From: Mortierella sp. BCC40632
Taxonomy: Eukaryota; Mortierellomycota; Mortierellomycetes; Mortierellales; Mortierellaceae
Assembly (NCBI GenBank): GCA_011634665.1
Contig: WAEK01000018.1
Location: 367,501-431,500, forward strand
DNA length: 64,000 nt
Direction: 5' to 3'
Shown in pieces: positions 2,626 to 58,041 of this stretch (position 1 is the first letter of the stretch; each line of letters begins with the position of its first letter). The notes below the pieces were generated by a model. That model searched no databases. It worked only from the letters and a program-made list of their open reading frames with translations, and had not been told where the DNA came from. A program made the translations under genes and the position numbers.

Positions 2626-2820
2626 TTTATGTGTAGGGAGCCCAAAGACCAAATTTCAAAATGGTCGTACTAACTCCATGTAATTTTCCAGCTACAGTTT
2701 GACTTCTAGACCCCTTTGAGTTTTCTGCGTTCAGCTCCATGCAAAATTTCCGTGCTATTTCCGTGCAAAAGTGGATGTGTGTGAAATTAAGACGCTGACA
2801 CATGTGTGAAAATAAGTTCA

Positions 2821-2885
2821 TTTTTTTTTTTTTGCTTGCCCACTAGGGGTTGTATTCGTCGGCACGCACTTATCCCCCGTCTACC
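2821..2885 (-). repeat. Third, partial copy of the poly-A-tailed repeat
   Basis: A T run at 2821-2834 is followed by a diverged version of the last roughly 45 bases of the repeat seen at 65-322 and 2358-2625. It keeps the conserved segment ending in the CGTCGG-CACGCACT core. Orientation is the same as the 2358-2625 copy. A 3'-anchored partial copy beside a homopolymer tail is what 5'-truncated retroposons look like, which favours a retroposon reading over terminal inverted repeats. Confidence 0.55.
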
Positions 2886-4560
2886 TTGGAGGGCCTTCGG
2901 ACTCTCTCCCCTTGTCAGCTCAGGACTTTGTTCTGACTAGATAAATGGATGAGTATGAGCTCACTCAGAGCCAATACTTCGAGTTGTTGCTTTTCTTCTT
3001 TTGGGCACTAGTTGAGAAAGAGACCGCCCTGGCTGCACAGTATACATCTTGGCCACGAGTTCACGCCTGAGATTTCAAAGACTTAAAAAGCATAGGCAAA
3101 TTTGTAGTGCTCCAACCATTCCGCATGCAAAGACCCCCTGCCGATTTGATACACTCATAAGATCATGGTGAACAGAAGCTAAACCATTGGATGCGCCCAA
3201 AATAAACAGGATTCCCTGTGTGTGTGTGCAAATGAATGGAGCAAAAATCCCACCAGTAGGTTTTGCTCCGCAATCACCAAATCTAGCACAGTCGGCGTAA
3301 CGAAAAGAATATTTTTTGCCACTGCGAATACTGGAGATGTGTAGTATGGTTTCGACCAAATTGCTTTAGTCTATCGGTCCATAGATTTGCCCATATTTAG
3401 ATAAAGACTCTCCTGCTGAAGTCCTCATATGGTAGAGCATTTAAAAAGACGTTAAACACTCGACTGCCAGTTGTGGATTCCACCCTGGAAAAAATTTTCT
3501 TTCCAAAATGCAAAGTAGTTCCTTGTAACATAGATGGATTGATCTCTGCTAAAAATAAACAAGCGTGTTGCCGGTAGACATTGACAAGCCATAGTACAAA
3601 GCCTAGCCGACTAAAGAGTCTTACTCTTCCAGTCACCAGTCAGTAGCTGATACTTATATGTTCCGTTATCAAGGCTACTGCCTAACAGAGCTCAATATCG
3701 GCCTTGATGCTCTGTTGGATCAAGGAGGTCATAACTAGACGTCAAGGCATGAGAGCATTTAATGAGCAAAGTTCAGAAAGGCTTTGAGTTGATTTGGCCA
3801 GGATAGGTAAATGTCCGAACCGCAAGTCAACATGGGCGTTCAATGGTTGAAAAGCATACAAGTTAAGGTAATAGGACGTTGTTCTGAGGCGTCTAGGCAT
3901 CGTAGTTTGGCGGTTCATGTCTGTTGCAACACATTTGTTCTTGTGGAGTTATACTATCATTTTGCAGGCTCGACCATTAATAGTAGCATGCCAAAACCAG
4001 TAAAGTACTTGGTTGGGACGGCTTTAGCCATCGGCGATGCTTACATCAACATCCTGATATCAACCTCGACTACTGAGCATGTGTGCCATAATGTCCGGCT
4101 TTACGATAAAATACTGATAACTTGGTTGTGGGGGGAGAGTCAGGTAAGGTACCGTCTTGGCCGCATAGTGACCCGCGATCTGGTGGCGTAAGCTCACGCA
4201 GAGTCGCCAAGTGTACCGCCTAGTCCCGTCTTGGCATCCGCAGACCCAGCACTGTTGCTGATGATAATATTTGCATAAGGTCGATATTCCGTCACTCCTG
4301 GAAGGCGCATATTCCTTATCCTGTAGAGCCCTCGGTACAGCACAGCTGCTGGCAGGCAGTCATGCTGATCCGCAGGCAGGTAGGCAGACTGGTGGAGATG
4401 GAGATGGGAAGCAGATGCAGTGGAATGGGTTGAAAACCCCCGCAGGAGTGACTTTTGATTTTTTTTTCTTTTCCGCACTTTCCAAGGACCCAACTGCAGC
4501 GACTTTGCACGCACGTATCACCCACGCACTCTCTCTCTCTCTTTCACTTTAGTCCCTTTT

Positions 4561-6618: not shown

Positions 6619-6970
6619 TTGTTGTTGTTGTTGTTGTTGTTATGCGACAACCTTGCATTCTGTAGCGTACAATGTGGTGGAAGAACACCAAGCTCATGAT
6701 CATCTTGGCTCTTGTTGTGGTTGTAAGTCTTGACTCTCTTTTCTCTCTTTCTCTCTCTTTCCTCCTTAAAGGAGTGAAACAGCAGTCTACCCCCCATTTG
6801 GGCAAGAGTGAACTGGTTTCAAAAAAAAAAAAAAGGTTAACACTTACGAATCTCTAATCATATGACGTTCCTTTTTCTTTTCTTTTTTTCTTCTTTTCCT
6901 CTAGTTCCTCATTTACCTCATTATCTGCGCTGCTTGTGGCTTCCCACTCTGGTCTTCTTGCCGCGCATAA
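4694..6970 (+). CDS. Longin R-SNARE, VAMP7 family
   Basis: This gene encodes a 220-residue R-SNARE that would drive fusion at the vacuole or late endosome (VAMP7/Nyv1 group). Seven exons fit: 4694-4775, 5082-5145, 5634-5832, 6148-6238, 6381-6484, 6666-6722, 6905-6970. They sum to a multiple of three with canonical GT-AG introns. The start reads MSIIYALVARGT, the usual beginning of a VAMP7 longin domain (residues 1 to about 115). The SNARE helix contains the zero-layer arginine in ERVLERGERIELLVDKT. A single hydrophobic tail anchor (about 20 residues) follows, with a short luminal end. Length matches the family. Introns are unusually T- and CT-rich, for example a T run plus (GTT)n at 6583-6640. 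Confidence 0.93.
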
Positions 6971-7244
6971 AGAACTGACAGGACAAAGGAACAAAGCAAA
7001 AAGAAAAAAAAATCAATAACAATAACAATAACAATAACAAAAAAAAATTGGCGACAATGTATACGTGACCATTACAATGAATAGTACTTCGGTGGAACAT
7101 TTTGAAAAAGAAAAAAGAAAAAAGAAAAAAGAAAAATATGTGGCTACTCTCGACTATTTCTCATTTGCAATTGATCCCCCCCCCCCTCCCCACCCACCCT
7201 CTCCTTATTGATCAAATGGAAAGGCACACGGCATATTGATCGCC

Positions 7245-7276
<32 letters not shown>

Positions 7277-7761
7277 TTTTTCATTCATTCCATTCGTCGA
7301 CTTGGGGTCCTATCCAGCATCCGCCATGAATTCAAAAAAAAAAAAAAAAAAAAAACAAAAACAAAACAAAACCCACTCTTCTTTTGTCCCCAATAACCAC
7401 TCTCGTAGCTCCTTTTTACATAGGCATATTTTTTTTTTTTATATTTATATATCTCATTCTTTCAGTAATGGTGATCCTGGGTGAGTTTCAGCTCTTGAGT
7501 GTCTCCCCTAGCTCACATTACTTTTTCTCTTTTTCTCTTTTTCTCCATACAGATAATAAAAAGTATTTTCTTTCTCACTCACTCTCTCACTTTCTCTCTT
7601 TCCAAATGTTGTCTTTACAATTCTGGGGGGACCAGATTTTTTTCTTCTTCTTCTCAAACAAGAGGGGACCGATGTACATGACTTCATTAGATTTTTAGGA
7701 AAAAAGAAAGAACGAAAGAAGAAGAATAAGAAAAGATGTCCAAGTCATTTCAAAAGTCTGG
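6971..7761. other. Convergent intergenic region, simple repeats
   Basis: This lies between two genes that converge on it. It holds A-rich and T-rich microsatellites, including (AATAAC)n near 7014-7040, AAAAAAG repeats near 7105-7135, (TTTC)n near 7245-7275 and an A run at about 7334-7354. Short open stretches here are low-complexity readings of these repeats. Nothing else is recognisable. Confidence 0.6.
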
Positions 7762-44500: not shown

Positions 44501-45641
44501 CAATGGATTAGTTTCCTGAGCTGAAGTTTGCAAAATATATTCGCACTTGCAATGGGCGCCTACGGTCATCCGATAATGGCAATTTATTGCTAAAGTCCAC
44601 TGGCAATTACCTCCTGCTGCTGCCCCTCCAAATCCAGTGCTAGCTGCTGCACCAAAGCCAGTAGAAGGCTGAGCACCAAATCCAGTTGCTGGCTTGGCGC
44701 CAAATCCAGAGCTGGCACCAAATCCTCCTGTGGTTGCTGGGGTCGATGCTTTTGTGAATAAACGAAAAGAAAGGTAAGGTAAAAAGGTTTAAATAATCAT
44801 TAGCACAGGTCCGAAAAAGATATTGAGACTGAAGTGAGAAAGCGAGGAGTATTTATGTGGTTTGACGGGCTATGCATGCTACACCTACATCCAAAACTTC
44901 CAAAGCCTGCGCTGGTAGAGGGGCCGGCGCCTAATGGAAATGATATGGTGTATGGTTCCCAATGGGTTAGTAATCTCCTAGATAAACTGCTGGACTATGT
45001 TGACATAAGCTGGAGATAGCAATGCTCCTTGTAGACTCACCTCCAAACGAAGTGCTGCCGAATCCTGACTGGGGCTGCTGCTGCTGCTGCTGCTGGGCAC
45101 CAAAGCCTGAGGATGCGCCAAAGCCGCCTAAGTAGGGAAAATGTGAAGAATTGGACAATTGCTCTTGAGTTGACTATCATTGGTGATATAAAAAAAAAAA
45201 AAAAAAAAAACTCTGATAGTCGAGAAAGGTAGGCAAGGGGACAAAAAAAACGCACTAGAGATACTTACCACTTGCTCCAAAGCCAGTGCTCGCACCACTA
45301 CCGAAGCCTCCAGTTGATGGAGCTGCTCCAAATGGTGTTTGCTGTGCGGTTTGACCAAATCCAGCACCGCCAGCCGGTGCACCAAATCCACTCGAGGCTC
45401 CTCCGAATGAGCCTAATGATTTGAAATAGAAACAGGATTTCGAGTTAGCATTGCAATCGGTCATTCCATCTTTTGAGAGTATAATCTATCCAGTCCAATG
45501 CATCATACATCAATGTCCGTGTTGAACGAGATGAAAAGAATTGGATCACTTACTTGAGCCAAAGGTATTCTGAGTGGTACCAAATCCTGTGTTGGGCTGC
45601 TGTCCGCCAAAGCCTCCGCCGCTAAAGCCAGATCCGTACAT
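38598..45641 (-). CDS. Nucleoporin NUP98-NUP96 precursor (autoproteolytic)
   Basis: One gene encodes both the FG nucleoporin Nup98 and the scaffold nucleoporin Nup96 (Nup145C of the Y complex). Eleven exons: 45554-45641, 45269-45412, 45041-45127, 44889-44930, 44611-44748, 44297-44469, 43922-44183, 41602-43823, 40876-41105, 38824-40753, 38598-38726; 1814 residues, all in phase. FG/GFG repeats fill the N-terminal third, interrupted by a GLEBS segment that binds Gle2/Rae1 (TPYVEKEQTTGQNSHYQS to EELRLQDYQQGRK). The autoproteolytic domain starts YWMSPSLEELRKMS. It ends KVEHFSEYG, with cleavage expected between Phe (41950-41952) and Ser (41947-41949). Nup96 follows with MGRSCRVGWGPNG and LDWRRTFGLFLWY. 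Confidence 0.95.
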
Positions 45642-46224
45642 GGCGAATGATCAAGGACCTGTTGGTGGTATGAGGGTGTATTCTAGATGTGCTGCTGGAA
45701 AAAAAAAAGGCCCACCCTTTTTTGCCGAGTATTACAAAGTCGGTCTTTGCGCGTCTTGTGTGGTCCTGGTCAGGAAGGCGAACAGACTTTTTTTTTGCGC
45801 GTGCTGTTGTTCCTGAGAGAAAGTGTTGATTGAGCTGCTATTCCTGTGGCAGCTGATGTAGAGAAAAGGGATGAACGAGTAAGATGAAAGGTGAGGTGAT
45901 GTCGCGTCGGATCACAATGGACAGCGGATCAATCGCATGAGATGGACTCGTCACTGGGATTTTGCCTTTTTATTTTTTTCGTCTTGGGAAGATAATACTT
46001 AAGGGTCTAGAGGCAGTGCTCGTTCATTTCGCCCTCCGTGCAAATCTGTTAACCAGCCAGCCACCTTTGACTACCGCGCACAATGCCTGCGGCTCACGCA
46101 TACCAAAGGCACCGCTTTCTTTGTAAGCTGGTTGCGAAATGAACTGCTTCGCCAAGGTATGTGATTATGCTTTCATGTGGCAGTGTACAAACCATCAAGG
46201 ATCACACCGTCTAGACAGTCTATC
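45642..46224. other. Promoter of NUP98-96 and 3' flank of MON1
   Basis: About 580 bp between two minus-strand genes. No gene, RNA or defined regulatory motif was recognised. Short T/A runs are present, for example near 45790. Confidence 0.45.
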
Positions 46225-49052
46225 TTACTTGAATTTTTCAAAGCTGGGCGAGTTGAGGATGAGGAGGTTTTCTTCTTGCTTGCGGATCCATCTCAGTAGT
46301 TTGTTCGACATTAATACCACAGCACTCTTTGATACAAGCGGTCCAAACGCCGCATAGAGTTCAAAGCTCGTCGTAATCTAACAAAAGAATAGCAATTGAA
46401 GATGTCAATATCCAGTACTTTGGTCCAAATGAAGCAGTTTGAGGTAGCGGATATTTCGCCAGTCCTTACCCATCCAAGCATTGTCTCTTGATCTCCCGCA
46501 TGGAATAGAAGCTTTAGAGGTCGTGTCTTTTTGTGCATTCTCTCGTGCATGTGCTGATATTGCCGCATCAGTCTCTTTCGTGAGTGCGAATTCGCATATG
46601 GGTCTGCAAGCTCCGGCATGGTGTACTGCACATTTGTCCTTGACTTGTATAAGAAGTGCCTCAGTCCTGGGATCCCTGTATCGCCTAACGTTGCAACAAG
46701 GTAATAGTTTTTTTTTTTTTTAACAAAACATCTTTCTTTTTTATCCCATGGCTCGAGCGCGGCTTGTTGATAATACAGAACACCTACCCACTGTGAATCC
46801 ACCTCTAGTTCCTGCGGCAGCATATCCTTCCAAGGAAGCGAGCATACCCGAAGATTCCAGCTCATCAACCACCTTTTGCTTCACGCTCGACATTTCAAAG
46901 AAGCTGTCCTTATCAGGCGAAATCAGGAGCATGCATACTCTCTTAGCAATATAGCAAATATATGCATGTAGGAAACTCTTGTTGTTGAACTTTGGTAGAC
47001 ACAAGGGAGTCCACGATTCAGAGCTTTCAAATGTGGTTGATCCCGAAAGCATATTAAATATGAGATGAAGATCAGAAGGATGCATAGAATGCGTCCTGGG
47101 TCGCAACAGTGTAATTAGTTGGGTTGGCGTGAGCAGTATCGCATAGAGTAGCGGCTATTGGTGAGGATAATAAACGTAGAAAGGCATGGCTTGCGATTAG
47201 CTCGACCTTCCGATGACCATTATCAAGGCACTCAATCCTTTAATCCTCCAATGAACATACTTTGCTTTTAGCACGCCCGAGTACCATGCCAATCTTATCA
47301 CGCAAATCCTTGGGCATGGTCAGACACTGGACGGCGCCCAGCATGAACCCGGCGTAGTTGTTCATTAATTTTCCCAGGCTGTCTAAAAAGATTTCCGTGC
47401 CTCCAATTAGCCCTCGAAGATCAAAATTGTTGCGTTGCTCAAAGATCTTGGTCATCTGTGAGTGTGTCAGGACACTAAGGATTTGTGCATAGAGGTATCC
47501 TAGCTGGTCCCGTAACTGCGGATCAAATTAATAGAGAAATTAGTATTGTGGATATTTTTCTTCTGCGATAAAAAAAAAAAAAAAAAAAAAGGCCCATCTT
47601 CATGCTGACACACTCTACCTGTGTTTCTGATTCGCCAGTTCGGGATACGCAGACTAGATACAGGGGAGCCCTCAGTAAGAATACAATTCGGCGATCGCCA
47701 GCATTGATACACCGTAATGAATCGTCATTATCGGCAAAGAAACTGATCAGGGCCTGGATGACGCCCATGTAGCTTGATATCCTTGACTCATCACCATAGC
47801 GAGCATAGATGGGTTTTCCTGCGCTACTGAGGATGAAAAAATGCTTTCGATGGGCGGTCCAGGAACTGATGACTTGGTCATCATTTTCGTAGTGCTTTTT
47901 ATATCCACCGTGGTTGTTGGAAATGTCGTCCGAATCATACGATTGTGTAGAGGCTGTCCGCTTGAGACGCATGGATGGCTTGCGGATCACCTTTAGTTTG
48001 TCTGTAGAATCCAGTCATGGAATAACACATACCAAGTTAGTTTCTTCAACTGTCCTCGAAAAGTGATCATGCATTGGGACATGTCGCATCATAATATTAC
48101 CTCGGATCTGTGTCTGATCCAAAGTGCTCTCAATCCGTTCACCGCCTCCTGATACAGACTCGACTTCACTCCCTTGGTCTTGGTCAACAACGAGTGTCCG
48201 CCGGAATCGTGCCTCTAGACCATGCGTTTGTAAATCATCTCGGTCATGTTCTTCGATCTCTTTCAGGGCTTCCATTGCTGTGGTCGCTGTCATAGTAGGT
48301 GGTGCTGTTGAGGAAACTCCATGCTCAGTAGCCTCCGCATGATGATGAACTGACCGCCCGGCAATCACAGGAGTACTAACACTACCGCTACGACTTTCTC
48401 GCGTCCGATCACGACCTGCTTCGCTCTCAGTATCTGTAAGACGTCCGTCACCTTCGTCTCCACTCTCAGAAGGGCTGCTGTTGTCACTTGTATTTTGATC
48501 CAGACCTAAGCCAATACTCTTGCCATGACGCTGCTCCTGTGAGGATACTGACATCGGCGCTAATCCTTTGAGTGGCCGTGTCGCGTTGCTGTGGCCTGCC
48601 CAACCACTGCTTGCCATAGCCGTATGCGAGCCCTGCTTTTGTGGTCCTCCATCCCTAGATGAGGCGGAGGATGAGGACAAGGCAAATTCATCACTTGAGA
48701 GAGATTCTGTATCATTCTGAAGAGTCTGCTGATGAAGCGGAGGCAACTGGTCGAACACAAGAGCAGTCGTCGGGCGCGACTTTGCTGGCATTAGCCTTGG
48801 AGAAGTGGCTGTCTGGATCGGCGATGGAAATGCGGGGGTGCCGACAGGCATAGGTGGAGAAAGCATGGATGTAGCTCCTGCGGCTGCCAGTGCAGTAACT
48901 GTCGATGTAGAGGCTGTTGAGGCCGAGGCTACCGAGTCGTTGTCCGGCGCGTGGTCGTCGGCGCGACTGCTAGAGCCGCCATTGCTGTTGTGGATACCAC
49001 TGCTGTTACTACCACTGCCGCTGGCACTGGCTGAGGCGGTGGAGGAGCTCAT
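46225..49052 (-). CDS. MON1: Vacuolar fusion protein MON1
   Basis: MON1 pairs with CCZ1 as the exchange factor that activates Rab7/Ypt7 on late endosomes and vacuoles. Six exons: 48101-49052, 47619-48001, 47261-47515, 46788-47154, 46470-46684, 46225-46377; 774 residues, in phase. The first 330 or so residues are Ser/Thr-rich and disordered. The longin-type domains begin RKHFFILSSAGKPIYARYGD, then YMGVIQALISFFADNDD, LRAPLYLVCVSRTGESETQ and LRDQLGYLYAQILSVLT. Next come FDLRGLIGGTEIFLDSL and PLLYAILLTPTQLITLLRP. The end is FELYAAFGPLVSKS plus a basic helix. It acts in the same fusion step as the VAMP7-type SNARE at 4694-6970. The decayed nuclease locus starts about 300 bp upstream in divergent orientation. 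Confidence 0.94.
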
Positions 49053-49357
49053 CGGTTTGTGTGGGATGGATGCGACAAAGGGATGGGCGATTCTCCGATG
49101 AGATGGAGAGCCTAAGTCAGAGGAACGTACAACCAGAGGGGTGTCAGGGGAAAGAGGGGCGAAGAGGGCGGACAGAGAACGATGGACAAGAGGGCATCAA
49201 GTGCTCAAGCTTCAGTCGATGGGGGGAAAGACCTCTTGCTCGCAACACACACTCTCTCCCTTGTCTACTGCACGATTCATGTGACCAACAAGAACAGAGC
49301 GACTTTTGGGTCCAGCTCACTACCATGTGTTCATCAGTCCTCCATCAGCACCTCGTC
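49053..49357. other. Gap between MON1 start and decayed nuclease locus
   Basis: About 300 bp that must contain the MON1 promoter and possibly the left edge of the inserted element. I saw no terminal repeat or target-site duplication by eye. Confidence 0.4.
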
Positions 49358-50581
49358 ATGGGTTGCCGTTCTCTATGGCTATTCCTTAAAAAATGGCACA
49401 AAGCTGTCCTTCGCCTAGCACAACAGAGGACTCTACAAGGCTCAAGCAAGCTTCGTATCGACGTTCAGAGCAGCATTTACCCTACTATTAGGTACGCCTA
49501 CACACATTACACCACCATCGAAGCTGTTCACTCCTTGGTTGTACGTTGAATCGAGCAGCTTGGAAGCCCCACAGACTCTATTCTTTATCTTAATGGTGCA
49601 CCAGCAGTTGAGAAAAACAGATACACCAACGCCGACAAGAGGTGCGCATAAAAGCTTTAGCGGCTGCGAAAAAACACCGCCATTTTTTCACAGCGACTTG
49701 ACAAACGCCAACGCACCAGAAGGCAGCACTTCATCAACGTCAAGAAGGGACTCAACAAGTCATTCGTCTGGGACCCTGAAGTCCGCGAATCGCTGACTGC
49801 ATACCTTTAAAAGCAAGGTTGGATGGTCGTTGAGTGCGAAATAGAGGCCGATGTTCAAATTGATAGGGACTTCGCTGCTAATGTACGCAAGCATCACGAA
49901 GATTTGGCAGCCGTTACAAAGAAACAAAATCCTAGAATATGATATTAGTGAGGTCTTAGCAGACTTAACAATCAGTAGAAGCCAGCTCATGGCTCTTGGA
50001 ATCGTCTCCTACAACGACTATGACAAGAACATCCCCCGACTGGGACTGGCGACAAATTACAAGATAATGGTTGGCCTATCTAGTGAAGGTATGTAAAGTG
50101 GGCACGACATTTTTTAACGAGACCGCAGTATAGTTCTTTTACTGACCTTGTAATTCCAGGTGTGGATACTCGATCCATGGTGATAGCATACTTGCACCGC
50201 AGTAAAGATATTACCAAGAATAAAGACCATCGATTTCGATTTCCGCACATCTTTGAGTCTTTGTTGATCTCTGTCAGACTCGAGCACCGACCGACACCAC
50301 ATCTCACTCATCAGTACAAGAGCTCCACCTGCAATGGAAACATCTTTGTGAAAGACACGAGAGTGAGAGAGCAGGGTAACACCGGGATCGAACTTGTCCG
50401 ATTGCGCTCGTCGAAAACACTAAACTGGTACAAGATTGTGGAATCCCCAGCTCCAAGTAACACCATCCACGATGGCGCTTGTACGGCTTCTCCCAGCGAC
50501 ACTCAAGACCCATCCTTGAACCAAGAGCCAGCTGACCATCCACCTCTGCCGAGGACGCGTATTCCACGTTATTGCCCCTGA
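49358..50581 (+). pseudogene. XPG/FEN1-like (PIN-like) nuclease domain, decayed
   Basis: The reading starts MGCRSLWLFLKK at 49358, the XPG-family N-terminal pattern (MG..GLW..L). It continues IRYAYTHYTTIEAVHSL, DSILYLNGAP, the acidic XPG-I-like stretch VVECEIEADV, and ALGIVSYNDYDKNIPRLG, like the helix-three-turn-helix region of FEN1. It is interrupted by in-frame stops at 49547-49549, 49649-49651, 49658-49660 and 49808-49810. A frame change near 49850-49870 goes with loss of the expected G-D-S-D motif. A normal intron remains at 50089-50159. A further stop at 50579-50581 lies just before what looks like continuation into the Fanzor part. Such flap-nuclease relatives cut branched DNA; this copy cannot be functional as it stands. 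Confidence 0.72.
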
Positions 50582-53502
50582 TACTCATTTAAATCGAGGA
50601 AAGGTGAAAAAAAAAAAAAAACGCCCACCTCCGGCAAAGATGGCACAATATGTCCTAAATCCTTACCAAGAGCCAGCAACCAAGCCTAACGGGTCTAATG
50701 ACAGACACGACAACACCTATGACAGCGAGTTAGCACCTGTGCCCAGGACCAACTCTAGAGCAAAGTCTAAATCCAAGACTACGGATAGCGCCCTTAAATT
50801 GGAAAGTATGCCGCCTTTGTCCTCTCACCACCCGATAGTATCATTGAACATTGACACTTTGTCGGCGAATGTCGGGCGCGCTCTACCCAACCAGCCAACC
50901 ATTCAGAAAGTGGTCATTAACTGTACAAAAGAAGCAGCGAGTGAGGCAACACGCGTCAAGCGTGAGGGCCAGCGTTTGATCGGTCGATACATCGAATGCT
51001 TAGACTGCATAGGGTTTGAAAATCTCAGCCAGAAAGACCGGGATATTCTTGATTCTATTTGTCCGCGTCTCAAGACAAGGACCATCATAAGCAAGAGTGT
51101 GAGCAAAGAGAGAAAGGAGGAAATGAAAGAGAAGGCAGGCGATATAGAAGTGGATGGTCATGAAAAGAAAGGAGAAGACGAAAAGAAGAAGGCGGTAGAG
51201 GGAGTGGAAGTAAGTTTGGATAATGAGGAGGAGGAGGAGAAGGATATGAACGATCTTGACTTGGGAGCTGCAAGTAAAAGAGAAAAAGAAACTTAGCAGA
51301 TAAGTTTGCTTTCCAGCCTTTGAGATTCCTGTATTCTGGTAACTATCCAAGAGCTATTGGAGCCAGAAAAATAGTCGGCACCGGAAATAAGACCGACTCC
51401 AAAAAAAGGTCAGCACAGGACAAAAGGTCGATGACTTCATTTCTCGTCTTGAGGAACTTGATTTATACGCTCCTCCACGGTATCGAATTGCGATTGAAGT
51501 AGGGATGCCCTACACTCCCGGTGATCTGGTGCGATCTGTAACAATACAACTTGCGGTCGAGCTCAAAAAAATCTACCGAAATGGAACCAAGGATTTACAA
51601 CTTGAGGTAATACATGGAAGGTTGGATTAGTACACGGTACGACATCAAAAAGTTAATTCTAACTTTTTTTTCTTTTTTTTGTTCGTAGCTCAAGCATAGA
51701 CAAGCGAAGGGGCAGCTTGGATCCGATGTTGACATCCTGGTTCGGGAGGACGTGTCATTTGTGGAGAACTTCATGAAACCCAATGAGCAAAGCCGGAACC
51801 CTCGCTGGATCATTCCAATCGCTGGATCAGAACAGCCTATCGTCGTCTTTTCCGAAAGAGAGCTTGCTGTGTTTTTCTTCAAGCGTGGCGGAGGGCTAAG
51901 GAAGAAGCTTATTGAGCTAGCGTCTATGGAAGGGACCTGTACTACGAGCGGTAATGTTACGAAATGGCTCAGTGGGGACCTCTTGGATACCTGTTCAAGC
52001 ATTTTATCGCTGACATCGATCCCGTCGCCTTGACGATTCGCCAACGAGGAAAAGTTGACTATGGAGGTGCCATCAAGCTGTTATCCCTCGATGAACTCAA
52101 CAGTCACTTGGAAGTAATCAACCATCCTGAATTCAAACCAGCGAAATACACTAGCAAAGGATACGTGTCAATTGGATCATTGCGAACGGACGGATTTCAA
52201 GTGCGATTGCTCTGCTTCAATCTGAAGATATTGCAATGTGCGTGATTACAGATACTACCTGAGGATCGCCTGCCTCCAGAAATCAAGTCCACACCTGGTG
52301 AAGTAGATTACTACCTACGAGAGATCAGAAACGTCATCAAGACCGGACCGGATGTATCTCAGCTATCGCCTGGCTGTGATCCTAAAGATATCAAGATTCT
52401 CGCTCTCGATACAGGACATGCCTATGTGGTGGGTGCGTATGCACATCTACCGCAGGCAAAAAGCAAAGCTGTTGTGCGAGACCAACCTTCAGTCACGAGT
52501 ACTTCGACGAATGTGGACATCGATGAAACTACTCACCTCAATCTCGCCATGAACCAGAAGGCTGCGCTTCAGCCGTACTTCCGCTACCGACGATGGCTAC
52601 AAGGCGAGAAGAATACGAGCCCTAAAAATCCGACAAAATCAGCTACTGACATTGAGTCACATCTTCCGCCACTCCGGGGCCCAAGATCTAGTGTTACTGA
52701 CTATTTCAAGGATCTTGATGAAGTTGATTGTCAACTTTCCGAGTTCTACAGTGGAAAAAACAATCGACTCAAGAAATACACGTTCGACATGAAAAGGGCA
52801 AAGCACGCCGAATACCAGGCAATCACGACTAGGCTGCTCAGAGTCGTTGGAGGAAGCATTGGTCGGCTCCGCAACAATGCAAACCCAGTGTTAATTGTGG
52901 TTGGTCTCGGAAAGTTTCAAAGTACCATTCGGATGTCGTCCTTAGGCTCAACTTTCTTGTTGTACTTTATCGCATCGGTAGGCTTGCCTTTTGCTTCCGT
53001 TAGAGACTACGCTGGTACTTGGTGCTAACACCAATCCTTTTGTGTAGGCTCGATCATTGTTATTGGGGTCAATGAATTCTACACTTCTAAGAAGTACCCC
53101 GATTGCCATGATTTTGTGGCCCAAGTGACAATCCGTCAGCTTTACTGTCCTCAGTGTAAAAGATATTACCATCGGGACGTAATGGCTGCAGAGAATATGT
53201 GTAGGATCGCTGAGGGTTATTTGGTTAAGCAAAAGAGATCACTTTGCTTGCAACCAATCACGGAAGATAGCAGACATCTCTGGAAGAAGGCTTCAAGAGA
53301 AGGAATGGACTCTGTTGCAACCGTTACCATCTCCGCAATCGACACTAACATAATCAGTGGCACCGCTACGACCAGCGCCATAGCAATCTCCAGTACCAGC
53401 GGCGCCATAACAGAATCCAGTGCCACTGGCACATCACGTCGAAGCAAGAGGATCTCCTCCGGCCAGGCGAGCGAGTACCCCGACAAGATTGCCGAGCAGT
53501 AG
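50582..53502 (+). pseudogene. Fanzor (eukaryotic TnpB-like RuvC nuclease), degenerate copy
   Basis: Fanzors are RNA-guided DNA nucleases related to transposon TnpB. Stretches used: 50640-51209, 51317-51606, 51689-52200, 52252-52980 and 53048-53502, with GT-AG introns between them. The N-terminal part includes SEATRVKREGQRLIGRYIE. RuvC-I is ILALDTGHAYVVG (Asp codon 52408-52410). The canonical RuvC-II Glu position reads VVGLGKF. A Glu occurs instead in VNEFYTSKK (53074-53076). The zinc finger is PDCHDF with LYCPQCK, and RuvC-III is HRDVMAAENM (Asp 53176-53178). Damage: a frame break at the A7 run 51402-51408, another near 51960, a third just after 53048, and TAC (Tyr, 53095-53097) where the first zinc-finger Cys is expected. 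The family call is strong; the loss of function is inferred from these lesions. Confidence 0.82.
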
Positions 53503-53728
53503 AATAGTTTCCGTAGCTATGTGTGTTCGAACCCACACACCCCAGTGCTGATCGCAATCAGCTAGTGCGACCAATATCTCATCCGTGAGGTAGTTACGAG
53601 CGACATTACACTTTGGCACGACCACCAATAACCTGCTTTATTGGAGTACAACCATGTTGCCAATACCTTCAGTTCCGCTAGCTGAAGCGAGCATATATCA
53701 AGAATGAAAGAAAGAAAAAAAGAAAAAG

Positions 53729-53825
<97 letters not shown>

Positions 53826-54044
53826 GATGCAAACTCAAATGTACAACTCGTTTACCGAGTCTTATAGACCCACAACACTACACGTGCGAGGCCGAGAGGA
53901 AGGACTACTGGCGGATATCAACCATACTCTCACACTCCAACAGAAACGATCTATCAAGGACTTCATACAAGTACACCATATGGGATTGTTCGGCTTCGGA
54001 GCCGGTGGGTGGGTGAGTGGGTTCCAAGTGCCTTAGGCTGGCAC
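53503..54044. other. 3' flank of the Fanzor locus: hairpins, then long poly-A
   Basis: Two perfect short hairpins lie just after the stop: 53520-53539 (TGTGTG...CACACA) and 53547-53562 (GCTGAT, loop CGCA, ATCAGC). From 53704 the sequence becomes GA/A-rich and then almost pure A up to 53821. An open stretch at 53825-54036 is unrecognised. In TnpB and Fanzor loci the guide RNA lies at the 3' end of the gene, so the hairpin region is a candidate remnant of it. Confidence 0.45.
53728..53821 (+). repeat. Poly-A tract of about 94 nt
   Basis: Two A runs (about 29 and 62) separated by a single G. It is the longest homopolymer tract in the window and lies 3' of the Fanzor remnant. It could be a retroposon tail, a slippage-expanded tract, or an intergenic A run like others here. 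Confidence 0.9.
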
Positions 54045-54935
54045 TTAATCTTGCTTTTTGGAAACAGCAAGAATAACGCTGTGCTGACCACCACCGGCAA
54101 CCTTGATCACACGGCTGTCCTGAATCTGCTGGCCGCTAACCTTCTGTGGTGTCTCTACATCCTCTTCTTCGCCATTGCCGCAAGCGTACATCTCGCCGAA
54201 ACCCCATGCGTAGACATCGCCATCTTCGGACAAGGCCAAAGTATGATTGCCGCCGATAGAGATCGACTTGATCTTGGGCAAGCCCTTGATCTCTGTGGGA
54301 TGGCGAATTGCCTTCTTGTGGCTGGTCTTGTCATCCTCAACGCCAGGCTCGACAGTGTATCCAAGTCCGAGCTGGTGGCTGTCAGAACGGCCAAAGCCAA
54401 AAACACGACCATCCTTGGTCAATGCAATCGAGTGATGCTCGCCTCCCTGGATATCAACAATATTCTCCTCTGCAAGTGACTTGATAGGCAATGCTGTGGG
54501 GACCAACTCCACCTTTGCGCTATCATCGCCCGATTGGCCATAGGTATTGAGACCCCAAGCAAGAGCCTTGCCATCCTTGTCAATGGCAAAGGAGTGATAA
54601 GAGCCAGCACCGACTTTGACGATGTTTTTGATACCAACAGACTCTGGGGTGACGCCATTGAGCATACGACGAGAAACGATCCTCCGTCCAAGCTGCATCT
54701 GCTGGCCATTTCCCCAACTGTAGACACGACCCGAAGATGTGAGAGCAAGAACGTGATCGGTGCCTGTGGCAATATCGACCACCTTGTCAAGTCCGCTGAC
54801 GAGCGAGGGCGCCTCCTGAACCTCTGCACCCTTGGAGTGTCCAAGAATACCTTCAGCGCTCTGCAATCCCCAATCCAGCCAATGTGTCAATGCGAGATAG
54901 AACGAGATAAGGAGCGGAACTGTCAATTAATTGCG

Positions 54936-54966
<31 letters not shown>

Positions 54967-55932
54967 AGCCTTGACGCGCTTTCAAATATGAAAAAAAAAA
55001 TTTTTTCTCCTTACTCTGAAAGTACCCCAAGTATAAACTTGGCCCTCCTCAGTCAAAGCAACGGTCATCGAGTCAGAGCAGGCAACCCTGACGACCTTGA
55101 CACCGTCAAGACCCTCAACAGGCAAAGGAACATACTCGTCACCTGAGCGAGCCAAAGTCTTTTGGTCATTGACTCCCCAGGACCAAAGCTATTCCACGAG
55201 AAAAGAGAGATGGAGGAAGACGTCAGCCTCAGAATTCAAGGAGGCACAAAAAAAAAAAAAAAAAAAACTCCCGTCCTTCAACAACATGAAAGGGGGCAAG
55301 TCAAGATGGTCAAGTCTTCCTTGTTTTTGTCGTTGTTGTTGCTGCTGTTGTTGTTGTTGTTTGCTCACCTTGCCCTCGCTTGTCAATGCCATATTGTGGA
55401 GACCGCCAGCGCTAATGTCAACGATATTTTGATCATTGAGAACAGCAACATTGGCAGGCTTCTTCCTCAATGTAATATCCTCGCCCAGACCAAGCTGAGC
55501 ACAATCGCCCGTGCCAAAGACATAAACCTTTCCAACCTCGGTCGCGCGTGTGGCCAAGGGGAGTTCCAAGGACGAACCTCCTGCAGACTTGGTCTTTTTA
55601 AGATTGGGTGCAACAAACCCGGAGCTGTTACGAGTACGCTTTTTGCTCTTAACGGCTCCAGTGGCAACCGGCTTGGGTTCGGTCGAAGGTGTCAACTCGG
55701 TGGCTTTCCGATGTAAAGAGACGATGAGGAGGATGGAGACAACAGAGAGAAAGAGAGAACAGAGCAGAGGGAGGCGAGTCAGCAAAGTTTCGTTACTGAG
55801 GAGAAAAAATAAAAAAATAAAAAAAAGTCCGAAGAATCCGGACAATCAGATCTCCATGACAGTCGATCCAGCGAGATTATCAGTTGCTTGTCCATGAAAT
55901 CGGCTTGCGTGGTCCGCGCTCTTACCAGCCAT
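54045..55932 (-). CDS. RCC1: Regulator of chromosome condensation RCC1 (Ran exchange factor)
   Basis: RCC1 is the chromatin-bound nucleotide exchange factor for Ran/Gsp1, creating the RanGTP gradient for nuclear transport and spindle assembly. Four exons: 55926-55932, 55369-55703, 55015-55188, 54045-54860; 443 residues, in phase. The first coding exon is only 7 nt (ATG GCT G). A basic tail (KSKKRTRNSS...LKKTKS) suitable for nuclear import and nucleosome contact precedes the seven-bladed propeller. Repeat cores are GKVYVFGTGDCAQLGLGED, LWSWGVNDQKTLARSGDE, QVYTWGTF, RVYSWGNGQQMQLGRR, ALAWGLNTYGQSGDD, RVFGFGRSDSHQLGLG and DVYAWGFGEMYACGNG. It works in the same transport system as NUP98-96. Confidence 0.95.
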
Positions 55933-56436
55933 CAGTGTATTTAATGTCGGTGATAAGCAAAAGATGATCCAAGGAATCGAGAGACCTTGTACAGAAAAAG
56001 GCGATCCGTTTCGCTTGTTGAATCACGTGCCCTAGGCCATTGGTCAGGGCGGCTTTTCTACAGACTGCATAAAATGTCTTACCACTCCTAACATTTACAA
56101 AATCAAAAAAATCTCTGGTGTTTGCTGTCAAGCTGCTATTTTTTTATTATTTTTTTGTCTTTTGGTTGAACAAAAAGTTTTTCTGTTTTTTGTAGTGTAT
56201 CCGAGGTTGGAACGGATTGATTAGGACGACAAAAGAGCGGCACGGACAGACAATGTGCAGGTTTTTGGTTTGGATGAAGCAAAGATAACATGGTAGATGG
56301 AAGACTATGGTACAAGTTGAATTGATCATGGTGCGTATTCACAAAGGTAGAGCGGAGGAGTTAGGAGGAACCGACGCATGGAGGTTCAGGAATCATGCGA
56401 AGCACATGGACGTCCGGCAGGAAAGAGCTCCAATCT
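55933..56436. other. RCC1 promoter and 3' flank of SAHH
   Basis: About 500 bp between two minus-strand genes. T-rich around 56135-56160. No gene or motif recognised. Confidence 0.45.
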
Positions 56437-58041
56437 TTAGTAGCGGTAGTGCTCGGCCTTGTAGGGACCATCGACGCTGAGTCCGAGGTACTCGGCCTGG
56501 ACGGGGGTGAGCTTGGTGAGCTTGACGCCAATCTTCTCCAAGTGAGAAGCAGCGACCTCCTCATCGAGCTTCTTGGGAAGCATGTGAACACCCAAGGGGT
56601 AAGAAGCAGCATCAGTCCAGAGAGCAATCTGGGCAAGAACCTGGTTCGAGAACGAGTTCGACATGACGAACGAGGGGTGGCCAGTGGCGCATCCCAAGTT
56701 GACCAAGCGACCCTCAGCAAGGAGGATGATGTGGTGGCCGTTGGCGAGCTCGAAGCGGTCAACCTGGGGCTTGATGTTGACAGCCTTGACAGCGTTCTTC
56801 TTCAACCAAGCGACATCGAGCTCAATATCGAAGTGACCAATGTTGCAGACAATGGAGTCATCCTTCATCTGACTGAAGTGCTCACCACGGATAATGTCAC
56901 GGCAGCCAGTGGTGGTGACGAAGATGTTGCCCTCCTTGACGGCATCCTCCATGGTGGTAACCTCATAACCCTCCATAGCGGCCTGGAGAGCGTTGATGGG
57001 ATCGATCTCGGTAACAATGACACGAGCACCCATGCCACGGAGAGCGGCAGCAGAGCCCTTGCCGACATCACCGTAACCAGCGACGATGGCGACCTTTCCG
57101 GCAATCATGACATCGGTGGCACGCTTGATACCGTCGATCAAGGACTCACGGCAGCCGTAAAGGTTGTCGAACTTGGACTTGGTGACCGAGTCGTTGACGT
57201 TGATGGCGGGAACCTTGAGCTTGTTCTCCTTGAGCATCTTGTACAAGTGGTGGACACCGGTGGTGGTCTCCTCAGAGATACCGCGGATCTCCTTCAAGAG
57301 TTCGGGGTGCTTCTCGTGGATGAGGGTGGTCAAGTCACCGCCATCATCCAAGATCATGTTGGGGCCCTTGCCATCCTTGAAGGCCAAGAGCTGCTGCTCA
57401 AGGCACCAGATGTACTCCTCATCAGTCTCTCCCTTCCAGGCGAAGACCTACAGATAGTGATGGTTACACGTACGAATGAAACGAACACGTATACAGATCG
57501 AGTTAATGACCGGGGTTACAAAAAACGAGCCTGGGCACACACATGTTCTGCCCCACTAAAAACAGGAGAAAAAAAAATAGAGCGTGTTGACATACAGGGA
57601 CACCAGACTCAGCAATGGCAGCGGCGGCGTGGTCCTGGGTCGAGAAGATGTTGCAGGAGGTCCAGGTAACCTCGGCACCGAGAGCAGTCAAGGTCTCGAT
57701 CAAGACGGCAGTCTGGATGGTCATGTGGAGCGAACCAACAATGCGGGCACCCTTGAGGGTCTGCTTGGGGCCGTACTTCTCACGAAGAGCCATAAGACCG
57801 GGCATCTCGTTCTCAGCGAGCTCAATCTCCTTGCGGCCATAGGCAGCGAGGTTAATGTCAGCTGTTGAGCGTGGAAGAAGCGAGAAAAGTTAGATGAAGA
57901 ACATCAAGATCGGCCATCGCAACACGTAGATCAACCCAGATCAAAGAGCAGATGAAAAGTGGTATGGAAGGTAATGGAAGGAAAAGTGGAAGTGATGACT
58001 TGTATGAGGATGAGAATGTACATACCAACTTTGTAGACCAT
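56437..58041 (-). CDS. SAH1: S-adenosyl-L-homocysteine hydrolase
   Basis: This cytosolic enzyme reversibly splits S-adenosylhomocysteine to adenosine and homocysteine, relieving product inhibition of methyltransferases. Three exons: 58026-58041, 57596-57861, 56437-57447; 430 residues, the normal length. After MVYKV the first exon joins [17 protein letters not shown]. Family blocks are [61 protein letters not shown] with the catalytic lysine, and the NAD-binding [17 protein letters not shown]. Then comes [12 protein letters not shown]. The C-terminus ends [12 protein letters not shown], carrying the NAD-contacting Lys and Tyr. Codon use is strongly C-biased, typical of high expression. Confidence 0.97.

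Follow-up and report, generated by a model that had tools for sequence, protein, structure and literature searches.

A 64,000-nucleotide stretch of DNA from Mortierella sp. BCC40632 (contig WAEK01000018.1, positions 367,501 to 431,500; the window) carries a decayed gene in which an XPG/FEN1-like nuclease precedes a Fanzor, a member of the RNA-guided nucleases of that name (PMC10432273). Its parts, with three intron-like stretches and two candidate elements 3' of the stop codon, are collected in Table 1. P0015, a 1,320-residue Entomortierella parvispora protein that its source labels "putative transposase," matches the gene by tblastn in seven colinear pieces over 49454–53472, and Pfam Cas12f1-like_TNB (PF07282) matches 53029–53499 (E 2.3e-10); for the short first piece by itself, XPG_N gives E 0.036, under the cut-off. 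Because the P0015 match is colinear across this span, the pairing of the two halves exceeds chance, and an initial annotation that had read them as one decayed gene is borne out. The motifs named there (MGCRSLW, VVECEIEADV, SYNDYDKNIPRLG, PRY..YSFK, and RPPPAKMAQY) are all found in the window.

Table 1. Coordinates within the window of the decayed fusion gene and its 3' flank
Feature	Position	Strand	Basis or remark
Decayed XPG/FEN1–Fanzor fusion gene	49358..53502	+	Matches single Mortierellaceae proteins of ~1,300 aa in colinear order; tblastn chain and three-frame reading
XPG/FEN1-like N-terminal nuclease remnant (XPG_N start MGCRSLW, EAD motif, NDY motif)	49358..50088	+	Family alignment, tblastn
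Intron-like GT..AG stretch, place of open copy's intron 2	50089..50159	+	Sequence compared with open copy
Linker region with family PRYSFK motif	50160..51606	+	Sequence, family alignment, tblastn
Intron-like GT..AG stretch, place of open copy's intron 4	51607..51688	+	Sequence compared with open copy
Fanzor large exon; RuvC-I aspartate in LALDTGHAY ~52408-52410	51689..52977	+	tblastn; genome matches
Intron-like GT..AG stretch, place of open copy's intron 5	52978..53047	+	Sequence compared with open copy
Fanzor last exon: alternative RuvC-II glutamate (NEFYTS) ~53074, zinc finger ~53095, RuvC-III HRD ~53176, stop 53500-53502	53048..53502	+	Pfam PF07282
3' hairpin GTGTGTTCGAACCCACACAC, candidate omega-RNA stem	53521..53540	+	Counterpart of covarying family hairpin; five pairs form here
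Right-end motif remnant CCGTGAGGTAGT	53583..53594	+	Agrees at 9/12 letters with CGGTGACGTAAT, the family's right-end motif; tentatively taken as the probable right end after decay

The Decayed Gene and Its Open Relatives

The MGCRSLW reading begins at ATG 49358, and the XPG remnant is interrupted by stops at 49547 (TGA) and 49808 (TAA); its equivalent of the FEN1 active-site residue D86 is asparagine (LYLNG), and the DSD motif of the active site is gone. In the linker, the single stop reported earlier at 50579–50581 lies exactly there and is a TGA, while the A run indeed holds 15 bases and breaks the frame but occupies 50607–50621, its start having been placed one base too early, at 50606. The first zinc-finger cysteine of the Fanzor half is tyrosine (KKYPDC, ~53095). 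We infer that neither nuclease is active in this copy. Sequence comparison demonstrates that the gene in the window is a dead copy, and its counterparts at related loci and in related species are predicted to encode one two-nuclease protein.

Match counts in the 49.9-Mb genome that holds the window are lower bounds: the Fanzor exon (second part of the large exon) matches at least 67 times, the XPG start at least 15, and the XPG middle at least 28. At 22 of 32 merged XPG places, the window included, a Fanzor match follows on the same strand 1.2–3.0 kb downstream (expected 0.09), which rules out two unrelated adjacent pseudogenes. Among 20 genomic regions retrieved for locus-level comparison (L033–L052), L046 (C9) contains a 1,346-codon open reading of six exons and five GT-AG introns of 84–97 bp, running from MGIQGLW to the Fanzor C terminus; at L035 and L045 the XPG half is matched only in part.

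A database search with the L046 protein returned 53 proteins, all assigned to Mortierellaceae genera, of which 13 span 92–100% of the query within a single record and 21 bear both signatures by motif; P0014, P0017, and P0019 have Pfam XPG_I and Cas12f1-like TNB on the same protein in precomputed annotation. The two-nuclease protein anticipated in intact form is predicted from the open L046 copy and from the 13 records with that coverage. The two halves are separated in relatives by a linker of ~350–480 residues with a motif common across species, and the spacing of ~60 bp first ascribed to them does not hold. The description of the join region as a decayed protein linker stands. A chance join at the A run is rejected, since the family alignment finds this linker motif in more than one species.

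Searched alone, the Fanzor half returned 204 proteins; among the 120 listed, those with an organism name are Mortierellaceae, and the others are probably metagenomic entries. No member outside Mortierellaceae and metagenome-type entries was seen among these best 120 of 204, in a search that needs shared five-letter words. The XPG half alone returned seven proteins, six of them named, all Mortierella or Dissophora. Pairwise distances of the XPG and Fanzor halves were compared in 22 of 51 proteins and L046, the 23 sequences in which each half has sufficient length; they correlate with r 0.75 (0 of 2,000 permutations as high; permutation maximum 0.27), and the two trees have 10 of 20 splits in common. 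These values fit an old fusion diversifying as a unit, swaps between copies being compatible as well. Almost certainly, one gene is predicted to encode a 5' nuclease of the FEN1/EXO1/XPG superfamily, a linker, and a C-terminal Fanzor RuvC nuclease.

Active Sites and Folds of the Two Halves

Structure comparison of a model matches the superfamily fold of FEN1/EXO1/XPG over residues 2–312, the region to which the structure-alignment rows (VIA-align) are almost entirely confined. The seven acidic active-site positions of the superfamily are present in the family, in FEN1 numbering, with the E160-equivalent as D. The D34-equivalent (residue 42) is D in 10 of 11 rows bearing a letter, the D86-equivalent is D in 15/15, and the E158-equivalent is E in 16/16; the D179-equivalent is kept in 15/16 rows and the D181- and D233-equivalents in 16/16. 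In the Rad2 profile alignment the family EAD lies on EAE, and therefore E158 is kept and E160 has become D; the same alignment rules out E158 as a variable position, with ETEAD aligned by its second E. The open L046 copy scores under the curated Pfam cut-offs (XPG_I 15 vs. 24.9 bits, XPG_N 14.1 vs. 22). PF00867 is carried by P0014, P0017, P0019, and others in the precomputed column.

The Fanzor half of L046 carries the PF07282 zinc-ribbon/TNB domain (E 1.9e-11), and RuvC-I D847 and RuvC-III D1097 are invariant (16/16 rows). An alternative RuvC-II glutamate, a Fanzor feature as defined in the accessible part of PMC10711439, lies six residues ahead of the first CxxC (NEYYTSKKCPxC; E in 15/16 aligned rows). 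It is followed by a C4 finger and RD, the first three cysteines being kept in 16/16 rows and the fourth in 15/16. Foldseek aligns the model with the SpuFz structures 9cey, 9ceu, and 8gkh at E 1.8e-8 to 3.6e-7 and template-modeling scores by target of 0.49–0.51, the superposition being coarse (rmsd 18–19 over ~790 columns).

The Transposon Carrying the Fusion and Its Right End

Five copies (L033, L034, L036, L042, and L043) are 98.3–99.1% alike and have a common right end, and the element measures ~6.9 kb in the two whose left end is complete. Perfect 8-bp target-site duplications flank L042 on C3 (CCACTACC) and a copy on C15 (TAGTCCGA); duplications of Mutator-like elements (MULEs) measure ~8–11 bp. 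Weaker duplications are AAAAAAAG at L036, a weak poly-A case, and GTCAGTAT at L046, which is tentative; none was seen by eye at L043, and the left end of L033 appears cut. The element ends have only short patches in common and form no clean terminal inverted repeat. Left of the fusion gene, on the opposite strand and in divergent orientation, lie FAR1-MULE-SWIM transposase readings; in fragments from L033 and L052, the SWIM match (E 7e-7) passes its cut-off, and those to MULE (E 4e-4) and FAR1 (E 0.002) fall short. Transposase pieces adjoin the gene in 12 of the 20 loci (L033, L034, L036, L037, L039, L040, L042, L043, L046, L048, L051, and L052), L048 having no XPG match; the pieces at L035 belong to an adjacent element, and no match was found in the remaining seven loci or in window positions 45001–58000. 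Many fusion-gene copies thus very probably sit in Mutator-like transposons, with a MULE-type transposase reading alongside, in keeping with the earlier suggestion that the fusion could be a mobile element's own machinery.

Two further observations concern these insertions. At L037/L036 (C2) and L035/L034 (C15), a group B element is directly followed, on its right, by a group A element, a recurrent side-by-side arrangement. At L040 (G000:C6:2617000-2626500), the 3' part of 28S rRNA directly follows the Fanzor stop at 6870–7510, joined to the element (Rfam RF02543, E 3.1e-138, model 2784–3401).

A hairpin 3' of the Fanzor stop is common to family copies. Across eight distinct sequences, chosen and trimmed by eye, which counts against the test, both partner bases vary in three of seven pairs, a number reached in 6 of 500 shuffles, and the covariation score is 0.372 (0 of 500 shuffles) vs. 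0.149 for the best slid control. Also unfavorable are the pair types, one of five measures, which are no better than shuffles (225/500), and the tails of L040, L041, L049, and L050, in which the hairpin was not seen by eye. The 12-mer CGGTGACGTAAT occurs 49 times in the genome vs. 7 for its reversed control and lies within 1.5 kb after a Fanzor match at 19 of the 49 places (expected 0.03), a count that is partly circular, as the motif was chosen from copies among those 19; the other 30 lie away from any Fanzor match, a further point on the negative side. The shared hairpin and right-end motif may represent an omega-RNA, transposase-binding ends, or both.

The 30 distant motif places could be nonautonomous MULE ends, ghost guide-RNA loci, or chance occurrences. 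Immediately right of the decayed element, the window has a long A-rich tract (53706–53824), beyond which a minus-strand reading from 54045 onward looks RCC1-repeat-like by eye.

A Possible Cut-and-Resect Mechanism and Its Alternatives

According to one proposal, TnpB cuts the donor site once it has been emptied, and the ensuing repair copies the element back (PMC12477157); a Cas9 editor based on human EXO1 raises homology-directed repair and lowers nonhomologous end joining (PMC11107001). We propose that transcription of the 3' end of the Mortierella element would yield an omega-RNA, with a guide taken from the DNA adjoining the right end. The Fanzor half would cut the empty site, either after the transposase has removed the element or at an element-free allele, and the attached 5' nuclease would trim flaps or resect 5' ends in place. 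Such processing would block simple rejoining and favor repair from an element-bearing sister or homolog, with recopying of the element as the outcome of what would be a cut-and-resect homing machine. We regard this mechanism as conceivable, with the balance tilting somewhat to doubt. As a whole, a fused gene in a MULE together with cut-and-resect homing is the best explanation, and we hold it in even balance. Still more tentative is the claim of a natural mobile machine in which one polypeptide would unite guide-RNA targeting with its own EXO1/FEN1-type end processing and force recopying repair.

Several observations weigh against this explanation. One signature is absent from 32 of the 53 database models, many of those being labelled partial; no Fanzor match accompanies 10 of the 32 XPG places; and four of the 20 retrieved loci (L047–L050) show no XPG match by tblastn. 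FEN1 E160 is replaced by D in all 16 rows. RuvC-I is mostly DLG, DGG, DAG, or DMG (middle residue L in 8, G in 4, A in 2, M in 1, and P in 1 of 16), whereas described Fanzors nearly always have DPG (PMC10711439); this frequent, not absolute, feature is mostly lacking, and we therefore speak of a divergent Fanzor-type protein. L038, L041, and L044 have both halves yet match no transposase piece searched, and the transposase readings of L033 and L042 appear frame-broken in places. The XPG places without a downstream Fanzor may be solo XPG fragments or have partners too diverged.

Of the alternatives, the one that survives best, although we judge it unlikely, is that the MULE transposase is what the fused 5' nuclease works for: it would trim flaps or gaps where the target is staggered by 8 bp or where excision leaves footprints, the Fanzor only bringing the nuclease to the ends. 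Fusion gene and transposase reading do stand side by side in divergent copies, and FEN1-type enzymes, whose fold the XPG half matches, cut flaps; the nuclease is nevertheless fused to the Fanzor rather than the transposase, and MULEs elsewhere move without a known XPG partner. It is improbable that the XPG half, rather than cutting target DNA, has a part in maturing either the guide RNA or the DNA:RNA hybrid it forms, or in shielding the R-loop: branched and RNA-containing substrates are both within the range of FEN1-family enzymes, and a structured RNA candidate lies at the element 3' end, but in vitro SpuFz1 cleaves target DNA when given its RNA, with no such partner mentioned in the accessible part of the report (PMC10432273).

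MULEs tend to acquire fragments of host genes (PMC6446971), and the XPG half could be an inert passenger, captured by chance and merely tolerated. All seven acidic positions persist in relatives that are mostly 35–40% identical, and the ratio of nonsynonymous to synonymous change (dN/dS) between L038 and L041 is 0.13 for the XPG half (just 5 synonymous and 2 nonsynonymous changes), which leaves this reading very little room. The same pair gives 0.30 for the linker and 0.34 for the Fanzor half, with few changes overall, and Fanzor exons alone give 0.42 (L052/L035) and 0.12 (L047/L048). Least probable of all are two separately expressed neighbor genes merged by gene callers, for although several database models end within one half and the four loci named above have a Fanzor without an XPG match, the L046 exons are separated only by 84–97-bp introns, different species have the linker in common, annotations from several genera cover both halves, and the halves codiverge.

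Like Fanzor1 proteins (SpuFz1 and relatives), the fusion family has the RuvC D-E-D residues, the glutamate six residues ahead of a C4 zinc finger, HRD, and a Foldseek match to SpuFz; it differs in its N-terminal FEN1/EXO1-type nuclease and long linker, in having mostly DLG/DGG rather than DPG at RuvC-I, and in size (~1,300 aa vs. ~600 aa resolved in SpuFz). With FEN1, EXO1, XPG (Rad2), and GEN1 it has in common the fold over residues 2–312 and the acidic active site, but it carries E160→D (EAD..IA), is joined to a Fanzor, and is transposon-borne and multicopy. ROr-4, PBl-3, and MCi-4 of Rhizopus, Phycomyces, and Mucor likewise place Fanzor1 in Mutator-type (MuDr) DNA transposons of early-diverging fungi; they are reported without a MuDR transposase and with 9-bp duplications, unlike the MULE-type transposase readings and 8-bp duplications here, and the available text mentions no XPG domain (PMC3627910). 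PpFz1, a Fanzor1 of an early-diverging fungus, also bears an extra domain, FRI, which the accessible portion of PMC11423790 names together with a cyclophilin structure, mentioning no nuclease domain. The EXO1-based Cas9 "exonuclease editor" similarly sets an EXO1-fold 5' nuclease alongside a programmable RNA-guided nuclease, but it is man-made, whereas the Mortierella fusion is natural, Fanzor-based, and mobile, and no homology of design is implied (PMC11107001).

Searches of a mainly open-access literature found no pairing of Fanzor with XPG or with Mortierella; PMC12719977 names Fanzor and FEN1, but in unrelated places of its accessible text. Among the papers listed by wider searches, none reports, to judge by title, an RNA-guided nuclease naturally fused to a 5' flap nuclease or exonuclease, and an XPG nuclease in Academ transposons found no support among the papers listed. 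Fanzor1 in MuDr-type fungal elements is already known (PMC3627910); what appears to be new is the second nuclease on a Fanzor-type protein.

If the proposal is true, evolution would have coupled RNA-guided cutting to end processing where engineers put EXO1 with Cas9. The role of Fanzors for transposons becomes testable, and if resection is built in, recopying at the donor site would be its likely purpose. The family, seen within the searches made only in Mortierellaceae and unnamed, probably metagenomic entries, would be a source of natural two-nuclease enzymes, and one mobile gene can lie behind Mortierellaceae entries labelled, for example, "XPG-I domain-containing" or "Cas12f1-like TNB."
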